This document shows, one piece after another, positions 50,362 to 52,536 of a DNA stretch of 64,000 bases. How positions within the stretch are numbered: position 1 is the first letter of the stretch; every line of letters starts with the position of its first letter. The position numbers were made by a program, and so were the translations under genes. This DNA is from Marivivens donghaensis (GTDB lineage Bacteria; Pseudomonadota; Alphaproteobacteria; Rhodobacterales; Rhodobacteraceae), in assembly GCF_023541015.1 (NCBI RefSeq), contig NZ_JALNPR010000002.1, positions 558,001 to 622,000 on the forward strand. The letters run 5' to 3'. Below the pieces are notes generated by a model that searched no databases, had not been told where the DNA came from, and was given only the letters and a program-made list of their open reading frames with translations.

Positions 50362-50994
50362 ATGACCCGTATCCTCTTTGGCGTTCTCGCCATGGCCATC
50401 GTTGTAGTGGCCTCGAACATCCTCGTTCAGTTCCTCATCCTTGATGGGATCCTAACTTGGGGTGCCTTCACCTATCCGATCGCGTTCCTCGTGACCGACA
50501 TCATGAACCGCGTCTATGGCGCGCAGGCTGCTCGCAAGGTGATCCTTGCTGGCTTTGTCGTCGGTATCGTCTGCTCGTTGATCGGCAACCAGATCCAACT
50601 CGAGTTCGGCCCAGCCGTTCCGCTGCGTATCGCGATCGCGTCTGCAACGGCGTTCCTCGTCGCGCAACTCCTTGATGTTGCTATCTTTAACCGCCTGCGC
50701 AACGGCAGCTGGTGGAAAGCTCCGATCATCTCGACTGTCATCTCATCGACCGTTGATGCTGTGCTTTTCTTCACCATCGCTTTTGCTGCTTTCATCAATT
50801 TCGGGGAAACGGCGAATGCTGAGATTTCTTGGGCTTGGGACGCGATGCCGGTGATGACGGTGGGCGCTGAGATGCCGTTTTGGGTGACTTTGGGCGTTGC
50901 GGACTATGCCGTGAAACTGGCGATTGCGCTTCTCGCGCTTGTGCCTTTCCGCGTCATTGTCGGCCAAATGTTGGCCAAAAAATCGGCAGCGTAA
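50362..50994 (+). CDS. yhhQ: queuosine precursor transporter (YhhQ/VUT family, DUF165)
   Basis: A 210-residue inner-membrane protein with about six hydrophobic segments. Family motifs include FTYPIAFLVTDIMNRVYG near the N-terminus and STVDAVLFFTIAF later. In E. coli YhhQ takes up preQ0/preQ1 for queuosine tRNA modification. No queuosine synthesis genes are in the window. The upstream leader is highly structured. Confidence 0.9.
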   Translation: MTRILFGVLAMAIVVVASNILVQFLILDGILTWGAFTYPIAFLVTDIMNRVYGAQAARKVILAGFVVGIVCSLIGNQIQLEFGPAVPLRIAIASATAFLVAQLLDVAIFNRLRNGSWWKAPIISTVISSTVDAVLFFTIAFAAFINFGETANAEISWAWDAMPVMTVGAEMPFWVTLGVADYAVKLAIALLALVPFRVIVGQMLAKKSAA

Positions 50995-51092
50995 CAAAAG
51001 TTTCACTAAATCTGGCTCAAAAAGTTTTGACATACACGACATATGTGTCACCCTGAGTTTACAGGCGAAACTCATTGAAAGGAGGTGATCCA

Positions 51093-51149
51093 GTGTCAAG
51101 AAAGGTATTGGAGAATGGTGTCGGGACAGCTTGGGGGGATCGCAGCTAA
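51093..51149 (+). CDS. candidate 18-residue leader peptide with an extreme Shine-Dalgarno sequence
   Basis: GTG start at 51093, TAA stop at 51147-51149, encoding (M)SRKVLENGVGTAWGDRS. The upstream GAAAGGAGGTGATCCAG (51077-51093) is identical to the reverse complement of the canonical 16S rRNA 3' tail over 17 bases, and GGAGG sits seven bases from the GTG, the ideal spacing. The peptide has no recognised family. Its stop codon is inside a hairpin stem, and a terminator follows 67 bases later, an arrangement typical of leader peptides in attenuators. A stand-alone small protein gene is the alternative. Confidence 0.5.
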   Translation: MSRKVLENGVGTAWGDRS

Positions 51150-51215
51150 GGCAGCCCTTGGCTGACGACGAACTCAGGTGGGACGACCTAACCGCACCCA
51201 CCTCCTGGACTTTCG

Positions 51216-51250
51216 AAGGGTCGCCTCATCGCCGGGGCGGCCCTTTTCCT
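51216..51250 (+). terminator. intrinsic terminator between the leader ORF and arfB
   Basis: 10-bp stem with one G-T wobble, AAGGGTCGCC / GGCGGCCCTT (51216-51225 and 51236-51245), followed by TTCCTT. It lies 120 bases before arfB. Confidence 0.78.
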
Positions 51251-51370
51251 TGCAATCGCACCTGTTTCGGGCAGATTCAGGACGTATTTGGGGAGCCACG
51301 AACGGTATCCAAATACCGCAAAACCCGCAATCGCACCCTTTTCGCCGCAAAACAGGTTTTATTTACGCTT

Positions 51371-51784
51371 ATGCTACGGATTTCTAACGAAATCACCCTG
51401 CAAGACTGGGAACTGACCGAGCAATTTGTCCGCGCCTCCGGCCCCGGCGGTCAGAACGTGAACAAAGTGTCAACGGCGGTCGAGCTGCGGTTCGAGGCCG
51501 AACGCAGCCCCTCTCTGACCGATGCGGTGAAACGACGGCTGCGGCACATCGCGGGGTCCAAATGGACGACCGACGGCGCCATCGTGATCTTTGTACAGGA
51601 CACCCGTTCGCAGGCCACCAACCGAGAGATCGCCCGCGACCGCCTCGCCCAGATGATCCTCAAAGCCACCCACGTCCCCAAACGCCGCATCCCCACAAAG
51701 CCCACGAAGGGGTCGGTCAGGAGACGGCTTGAGGCGAAGAAGATCAGGGGGGAGGTTAAGGCTTTACGCGGTAAGGTTGAGTAA
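51371..51784 (+). CDS. arfB: alternative ribosome-rescue factor ArfB (peptidyl-tRNA hydrolase, YaeJ family)
   Basis: A 137-residue protein. The GGQ motif that triggers peptidyl-tRNA hydrolysis is at residues 26-28 (SGPGGQNVNKVS), and the basic C-terminal tail (KRRIPTKPTKGSVRRRLEAKK) that enters the empty mRNA channel of stalled ribosomes is complete. It lacks the codon-recognition domains of RF1/RF2. The ATG at 51371 has no visible Shine-Dalgarno. Its reading frame stays open back to 51131, but that stretch shows no homology and overlaps the hairpins. Regulation by the upstream leader is inferred. Confidence 0.93.
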   Translation: MLRISNEITLQDWELTEQFVRASGPGGQNVNKVSTAVELRFEAERSPSLTDAVKRRLRHIAGSKWTTDGAIVIFVQDTRSQATNREIARDRLAQMILKATHVPKRRIPTKPTKGSVRRRLEAKKIRGEVKALRGKVE

Positions 51785-51825: not shown

Positions 51826-52536
51826 ATGCACTTAGTTTACTATGACGAAGTCAAATACGAATTTGGTAAACAAGAAGCACATTGGTTCGGAGGTGTTGTC
51901 ATATCCTCCAAAGATATCGCAAGCGTTGAGGAAAAGTTAAATCAACTTGCGAAAGATGTATTTGGGACTGCGCTTCTAAGTGTCGACACAGAATTTCATG
52001 CAAAAGATATTTTCCACGGGAAAAAGAACTTTAAAGGAAAACCGATTGATGAGCGGTTGGAGATCTTAGAGAAACTCATCGCTATCAGCGCGGAACCAGA
52101 GGTAAACTCGATCTATGCTAGGGTCCGACCCGAGCCAGTAACATTCATAAATACATCGCAAGATTGCGAAGAGTTTACATTTATGTGTTTTGTGGAAAGG
52201 GTAGATAGCTTTTTAAAATCAGAAAAAAGTGTGGGTATGCTAATCGGCGATTATGATGAGCCAAACATTGGTCCATCAGTCGCAAACTTGTCGAAATTTA
52301 GGGAAGAGGGAACAAGCCGTCTTTTAGGGCGCGAAATTAAACAACTAGTCGACACGGTCCATTTCGCGAAAAGTCATCATAGTAGGTTAATCCAATTAGC
52401 GGACGTCGATTTATATTGTCGTCAATTTTTACATGGCGACAATACTTCCACTCACCGATCAAAACTCGAAAAAATAATCAAAGGTTTCAGCGCAAAGCGC
52501 TTCCCCAAGAGATACAAAGATTACCCGAGTAAGTGA
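51826..52536 (+). CDS. DUF3800 domain-containing protein (RNase H-like fold), AT-rich
   Basis: A 236-residue protein with the DUF3800 pattern: N-terminal HLVYYDEV with an acidic residue, central MLIGDYDEPN, and C-terminal SRLIQLADVDLYCRQ. These acidic residues suggest a metal-dependent nuclease-like fold, but no activity is known. Two sampled 60-base lines of the gene have 38-40% GC against about 67% in arfB, and codon use is unlike the neighbours, so recent acquisition is likely. DUF3800 genes are frequent in accessory regions, sometimes near defence genes; none is recognisable here. The ribosome binding site is weak. Confidence 0.85.
   Translation: MHLVYYDEVKYEFGKQEAHWFGGVVISSKDIASVEEKLNQLAKDVFGTALLSVDTEFHAKDIFHGKKNFKGKPIDERLEILEKLIAISAEPEVNSIYARVRPEPVTFINTSQDCEEFTFMCFVERVDSFLKSEKSVGMLIGDYDEPNIGPSVANLSKFREEGTSRLLGREIKQLVDTVHFAKSHHSRLIQLADVDLYCRQFLHGDNTSTHRSKLEKIIKGFSAKRFPKRYKDYPSK

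Follow-up and report, generated by a model that had tools for sequence, protein, structure and literature searches.

The stretch of DNA analysed here (hereafter the window) comprises 64,000 nucleotides of Marivivens donghaensis (contig NZ_JALNPR010000002.1, positions 558,001 to 622,000 of the forward strand). Between a gene of the queuosine precursor transporter type (vut) and arfB, which encodes a ribosome-rescue peptidyl-tRNA hydrolase, it carries a compact element with an extended Shine-Dalgarno (SD) sequence, a short leader open reading frame (ORF), several potential helices and a terminator hairpin (Table 1). A preliminary description of this DNA had read these parts as a possible attenuator of arfB. 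The features that it listed are all present, and their conservation goes beyond chance.

The terminator hairpin (51216-51245) is followed directly by TTTTCC in the window, where 124 nt separate the terminator stem from arfB. As the preliminary description had remarked, no Shine-Dalgarno sequence is seen in the window before the arfB start codon at 51371. The upstream neighbour is also well kept, vut lying 5' of the element in 148 of the 162 loci that have at least 800 nt of upstream sequence. A long ORF that runs into arfB (51131-51784) was discarded as only mechanical. The gene 3' of arfB encodes a DUF3800 protein (window 51826-52536); among loci L001-L027, whose sequences extend about 1.5 kb past the element, tblastn with this protein matched only its own locus, and the gene may therefore have been inserted locally. 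In another locus (L010, about 1-952), three more places beyond arfB match the C-terminal 30-40 residues of ArfB, as if the tail segment had been copied.

Table 1. Features of the element and its neighbours in the window
Feature	Position	Strand	Evidence or remark
vut (queuosine precursor transporter type), gene upstream of the element	50362-50994	+	Pfam Vut_1 4.5e-28, TIGR00697
Element as a whole	51027-51250	+	Between vut and arfB
TTGACA, -35-like hexamer, probably the element's own promoter	51027-51032	+	Position kept across loci
Extended Shine-Dalgarno (SD) AAAGGAGGTGATCCAG	51078-51093	+	Complementary to 16S 3' end over 16 nt
Leader ORF, 18 codons, GTG start, TAA stop, peptide VSRKVLENGVGTAWGDRS	51093-51149	+	Stop-codon conservation
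Long-range helix, 5' strand, GAAAG, ORF codons 3-5	51100-51104	+	Covariation
P1, hairpin over the stop codon	51143-51151 with 51156-51164	+	Own versus swapped partners; changes on both sides
P2, 5' arm, AGGTGGG	51176-51182	+	Own versus swapped partners
P2, 3' arm, CCCACCT	51197-51203	+	Own versus swapped partners
Anti-Shine-Dalgarno (anti-SD) CACCTCC, like the 16S tail core; can pair with 51081-51087	51199-51205	+	
Long-range helix, 3' strand, CTTTC, directly 5' of the terminator stem	51210-51214	+	Covariation
Intrinsic terminator, hairpin 51216-51225 with 51236-51245, short T tract	51216-51247	+	-22.0 kcal/mol
arfB, ribosome-rescue peptidyl-tRNA hydrolase, ATG at 51371	51371-51784	+	NF006718 2.6e-54; GGQ motif in translation

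By BLASTN, the element is found in 27 of 61 genomes, its own included, all belonging to one family, the Rhodobacteraceae; the weakest match (L027) covers 27 bases. A pattern built from the SD and the ORF, with up to three mismatches, matches 304 of 394 genomes of this family, with no control match among the matches listed. An exact scan of named genomes with the pattern yields at least 119 stretches, including representatives of Ruegeria, Paracoccus, Roseovarius, Loktanella and Thioclava. A search of plasmids returned one Methylobacterium match (39 bases, 85%, E 0.3), which was taken as chance. Judged by this comparison of genomes, the element is a gene that is conserved family-wide.

Comparative counts are based on 175 of 176 loci, which were brought into one orientation. 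L027 was left out as it has no 18-codon ORF, despite which it scores 42.4 bits with one of the models (R1). The exact pattern retrieved loci L028-L146, and allowing it up to three mismatches added L147-L176. The 175 loci do not amount to 175 species, since several come twice from one genome (e.g. L013/L047/L158 and L023/L059). Terminator and spacing counts use 164 loci, the other 11 having no anchor or being too short. The alignment holds 156 distinct elements (the 164 minus L095, L137 and six duplicates), the comparison of own with swapped partners uses 155 loci (L031 left out), and folding was predicted for 149 (six more left out). The search pattern fixes the SD, GTG, TGGAG and GG.ACA, so conservation of those letters in the loci it retrieves is not evidence. 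The stop codon, the hairpins, the long-range helix, the anti-SD and the terminator all lie outside the pattern.

The 3' end of 16S rRNA was not found in the organism's own draft assembly, nor as an 18-mer in six relatives, and was read as CTGGATCACCTCCTTT in a relative from the same family (G106), where a 15-mer search of eight genomes located it and where the 16S gene ends GGCTGGATCACCTCCTTTCT. The leader pairs with this end over 16 nt. The calculated energy is -31.3 kcal/mol for pairing with the 16S tail, against -16.2 kcal/mol for pairing with the leader's own anti-SD stretch. The sequence AAAGGAGGTGATCC occurs once in the organism's own genome when up to one mismatch is allowed.

Of 173 loci, 168 have a stop at codon 19 of the leader ORF (TAG in 73, TGA in 61, TAA in 34), and TGG never occurs there; the remaining five loci stop at codon 18, 21 or 23. 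Of 174 loci, 92 have a stop within 18 codons in one alternative frame and 84 in the other. Because the stop at codon 19 is kept through all three stop codons and never becomes TGG, and because the other frames are often stopped, the leader ORF is, on comparative grounds, under coding constraint. The leader ORF proposed earlier to precede arfB is therefore borne out.

Both ends of the putative transcription unit were assessed by comparison, as scans of the window (50980-51420) were negative: a sigma-70 scan found nothing and no -10 was recognised, and an automated terminator scan, which needs five T in eight, likewise found nothing. An exact TTGACA stands 48-52 nt 5' of AAAGG in 105 of 173 loci, and in none after one shuffle of each upstream stretch. 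This hexamer probably belongs to the element's own promoter. A GC-rich hairpin occurs at the place of the terminator in 163 of 164 loci (at least 20 on a hairpin score devised here), the exception being L137. Of the strong terminator described earlier, the stable and conserved hairpin thus stands, while automated recognition failed. The bases that follow TTGACA (51027-51055, and in relatives too) often read CAC..(A)AT.TGTG, which is partly palindromic and could be a site for a regulator.

The helix that covaries best is absent from the preliminary description. On alignment evidence it is the long-range pairing between codons 3-5 of the ORF and the bases at 51210-51214, which abuts the terminator stem. 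In a sequence-only alignment of the 156 distinct elements, 51102:51212 ranks first among 13,695 column pairs. It is G-C in 106 elements and A-T in 45 and is complementary in 98%. On a tree built without these columns, there are 11 double changes, each with both sides altered on the same branch, versus 4 single changes. In other species the helix reads GAGAA:TTCTC, GAATG:CATTC, TGAA:TTCA, TAAAG:CTTTA or TTGAG:CTCAA. Across its five pairs, 79% of cells are standard, versus 25-54% when the strands are slid; the inner three pairs are standard in 90-98% and the outer two in 61% and 49%. Seventeen column pairs have E < 1, of which only 7 are at least 79% complementary, and the other 10 reflect relatedness or alignment.

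In an alignment of 26 rows, the long-range helix is 83% paired and four of its five pairs change on both sides, as do six of the nine pairs of P1. Every slid version scores below the three-helix structure, and in four of five measures so do all 500 shuffles; in the fifth, 87 of 500 reach it.

Pairing strength was also calculated for each locus with its own partner and with permuted partners, in permutations that ignore relatedness. Across 155 loci, own partners pair better for P1 (z -8.1), which bears out the hairpin reported over the leader stop codon, and for P2 (z -8.1). The pairing of SD and anti-SD gives z -6.8, which rests on few changes because few SD positions were free to vary. Within the family, the gain for the long-range helix is modest (-4.27 vs -3.89 kcal/mol, z -3.8), and its own partner is stronger than cross-class partners in 59% of the 155 loci. 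Four control pairings gave z -1.8, -0.7, +3.3 and +1.1. A co-adapted pairing of TTGGAG with the anti-SD was rejected (z 0.1). Covarying pairs, whose absence the preliminary description had named as a ground for abandoning its proposal, are therefore present.

For the folding predictions, a ribosome on the leader was mimicked by blocking codons 4-14, and a terminator not yet made by omitting its 3' arm. Under these conditions, the window shows the P2 pairing 51176/51197 at a probability of 0.78 and SD pairing at 0.00, and the finished free RNA shows 0.00 and 1.00, respectively. The two alternative pairings of the preliminary description do alternate in this prediction. Averaged over 149 loci, SD:anti-SD pairing has a predicted probability of 0.95 in the finished free RNA. 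For the long-range helix, free RNA that still lacks the terminator's 3' arm gives 0.91 in the window and a mean of 0.30 over the 149 loci. The finished free RNA gives only 0.01 for this helix, since it and SD:anti-SD together make a pseudoknot, which the folding program cannot model. Its value of 0.00 under an initiating ribosome is built in, as those bases are blocked. The terminator is predicted at 0.97 in every ribosome state of the finished RNA, so folding alone shows no change in termination.

The association with arfB is frequent and incomplete. Of the 175 loci, 123 have arfB no more than 450 nt downstream of the element, 43 do not, and 9 are undecided. Among the 43, arfB is farther down in 16 and is not seen in at least 1.5 kb in 27; some of the 43 (L023 and L126) have a long ORF on the opposite strand behind the element. 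In all 18 genomes checked (16 from the unlinked class, and those of L078 and L093 from the undecided class), arfB is present, either farther down or at another place. Linked (110) and unlinked (38) loci do not differ in helix length, SD:anti-SD energy or terminator energy, and only the T tract is somewhat poorer in the unlinked ones (4.4 vs 5.3 T in 8). Three loci (L028, L040 and L073) have same-strand ORFs between the element and arfB, which by eye resemble transporter and oxidoreductase genes.

The distance from the terminator stem to the arfB start is 13-33 nt in 45 of 164 loci (L095 and L137, both with odd hairpin calls, are among them). Such spacing leaves little room for a separate promoter, and read-through is then the simplest source of arfB mRNA. 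Diverged elements adjoin arfB as well. Twelve genomes were taken from the 90 family genomes negative for the pattern, and 11 of the 12 have arfB. With model R1, a diverged element was detected within 100 nt 5' of arfB in 6 of these 11 (L197, L200, L203, L204, L205 and L207), and a more distant one in L201.

Relatives of the element occur beyond the family. CC2171 is a Caulobacter sRNA, reportedly described by Landt et al. in 2008, and corresponds to the Rfam family RF01867. No Rfam family reaches its gathering score in the window. RF01867 aligns with 51069-51244 (model positions 1-159) at 42.0 bits and E 1.3e-7, below its cut-off of 75 bits. All 11 family loci tested with it score 30.4-44.7 bits. 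The alignments owe most of their score to the 5' block and to the terminator, and in them the middle part and the long-range helix are largely unaligned or non-standard. Across the class, RF01867 matches 61 of 289 genomes at E ≤0.001, nine of them above the cut-off. The SD pattern alone matches 49 of 337 class genomes, with no control match among the matches listed. Detection is mutual: a model from 26 family elements matches 45 of 240 class genomes and recovers 28 of 28 loci found by RF01867 at 27.7-48.1 bits, the weakest of which say little, as unrelated-looking pattern matches still reach 19-26 bits.

The likeness extends to the 5' block GAAAGGAGGUGAUCCAGUGUC, the terminator, and a long-range helix that RF01867 draws just 5' of the terminator. 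The covarying helix of the family is at the equivalent place, as judged by position; the RF01867 alignments of family loci do not align a helix there. In loci found by RF01867 (n=27), this helix is stronger with its own partners (-9.9 vs -6.8 kcal/mol, z -6.8; neighbouring control z 0.04), in a set that is biased toward the helix because the model draws it. In loci found by the SD pattern (29 of 30), the values are -7.8 vs -5.75 kcal/mol (z -5.0, 0 of 5000 permutations as good), with seven loci that look unrelated or without a convincing helix (L246-L250, L254 and L257). The two sets overlap in genomes. The long-range helix thus recurs, with other letters, in other alphaproteobacterial families.

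The two groups also differ. RF01867 is filed as an sRNA without an ORF, whereas the family element has an ORF that is kept through stop-codon turnover. All the same, 29 loci found by RF01867 outside the organism's own genome carry ORFs of 18-26 codons. In Caulobacter-type members, the SD-complementary stretch is inside the ORF (around CTGGATC and GCCTC in L209, L212 and L216), whereas in the family it lies behind it. Unlike many family loci, the relatives have no neighbouring arfB: tblastn within flanks of up to 1.5 kb detected arfB and vut in 0 of 29 loci found by RF01867 and 0 of 30 found by the SD pattern. In 14 of 26 loci outside the family, the closest long ORF downstream runs on the opposite strand, these ORFs being longest-ORF picks rather than annotated genes. 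Together, these observations suggest that small ORFs are a feature of an orphan Caulobacter sRNA family whose members extend across many alphaproteobacterial families. Passages of Schrader et al. (PMC4117421) report that two Caulobacter RNAs once predicted to be noncoding are translated. CC2171 is named in part of the Rfam 15 paper among families improved by covariation, with one pair (PMC11701678), and has an entry in a Mesorhizobium huakuii list (PMC5596092).

The reading that we favour, with slightly better than even confidence, is that the element is an autonomous, ribosome-gated small mRNA or sRNA for which arfB is a frequent read-through passenger. We infer a transcript of about 190 nt, expressed from its own promoter, with a 16-nt SD match, an 18-codon ORF and its own terminator. 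Where no ribosome is present, the RNA would close over its own initiation site, the SD pairing with the downstream anti-SD copy and codons 3-5 with the bases just 5' of the terminator, in a helix that would abut the terminator stem. Both pairings would stay open while a ribosome initiates on the leader. The RNA would be a ribosome-gated switch that signals whether ribosomes are loading on the leader. In Rhodobacteraceae, arfB usually follows directly behind the element. In tightly spaced genomes, arfB mRNA would arise most simply by read-through or from inside the element, and the state of the leader could then set arfB. Where arfB does not adjoin, as well as outside the family, this RNA would work in trans or via its peptide.

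The best-surviving alternative, which we consider rather doubtful, is a stand-alone sRNA or small-protein gene next to which arfB is a mere neighbour with its own promoter, untouched by the state of the leader. The own promoter hexamer and terminator hairpin fit such a gene, as do the 43 equally structured loci without nearby arfB, the 18 checked genomes with arfB farther down or elsewhere, the opposite-strand ORFs outside the family and the 124-nt gap in the window. It accounts poorly for the 45 loci with arfB 13-33 nt behind the stem, where a separate promoter hardly fits, and for the diverged elements that too adjoin arfB.

A dedicated feedback attenuator, in which stalled or scarce ribosomes on the leader would settle whether transcription ends or arfB is expressed, is the proposal of the preliminary description. 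Its parts are real: the leader ORF, the covarying stop hairpin and P2, the alternative pairings, the terminator hairpin and the short distance to arfB in many loci. Its purpose is not supported, as the element is intact in the 43 loci without neighbouring arfB and no arfB was detected in the flanks of up to 1.5 kb of class relatives. Leader-peptide attenuators combine an ORF before an intrinsic terminator with an antiterminator that excludes the terminator and is backed by covariation. The element has the former, with a predicted ORF and a terminator that the scan of the window missed; its candidate for the latter does not covary (z 0.0), and the terminator is predicted in every ribosome state. 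We therefore regard control of arfB as a dedicated purpose as improbable. Antitermination by the post-stop bases GGCAGCCCTT, which resemble the 3' arm of the terminator and could hold its 5' arm, is largely refuted and very improbable, since their strong calculated pairing (mean -12.8 kcal/mol over 155 loci) is the same with swapped partners (z 0.0; 1018 of 2000 permutations as good), has a mean predicted probability of 0.00-0.04, and looks like an effect of GC content.

Known systems share parts of this anatomy. One group is the trp-type leader attenuators with a leader RNA or peptide that reportedly acts in trans (rnTrpL/peTrpL, PMC7298713). Like the element, these have a leader ORF, alternative hairpins and a terminator, and a leader product may act in trans. 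Unlike them, the element has no run of codons for one amino acid, no co-varying antiterminator was found in it, and its leader persists without the downstream gene. A precedent for a feedback attenuator is the upstream ORF (uORF) of Sinorhizobium meliloti duf1127_1, which passages of PMC12218461 propose to sense ribosome availability. There, the ribosome-binding site can pair within the leader, termination is presumably Rho-dependent in the absence of an intrinsic terminator, and the masked part consists of C-rich codons. Both systems have a short uORF and a ribosome-binding site able to pair inside the leader, whereas the element has a conserved terminator hairpin, a helix that joins codons 3-5 to the bases before the terminator, and another target gene.

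The earlier remark that no system of this kind is described needs qualification, as the anatomy overlaps both RF01867 and the S. meliloti duf1127 attenuator. The literature surveyed by title and abstract opening contains no description of the element itself and no leader mechanism for arfB. Likewise, the main-text passages seen of sRNA papers on R. pomeroyi and P. denitrificans (PMC4809877, PMC5107571) do not name the locus.

A broader version of the favoured, ribosome-gated reading is tentative and falls well short of probable. It holds that a class-wide alphaproteobacterial switch senses free 30S subunits, that Rhodobacteraceae wired this sensor to ArfB, and that other lineages use it in trans. 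The SD would match the 16S tail over much more than the usual core, and the anti-SD would copy that tail, so that ribosomes and the 3' part of the RNA would compete for the same bases, with the helix at the terminator reading out the winner. With its 16-nt match to the 16S tail, its internal copy of that tail and a covarying helix next to the terminator, the conserved RNA makes ribosome-supply sensing directly testable, and the matter bears on how cells measure ribosome supply and raise rescue factors.

Five genomes from other families (G048, G516, G720, G746 and G753) have two or three RF01867 matches each, some of the second ones weak, and the RNA may be duplicated in them.
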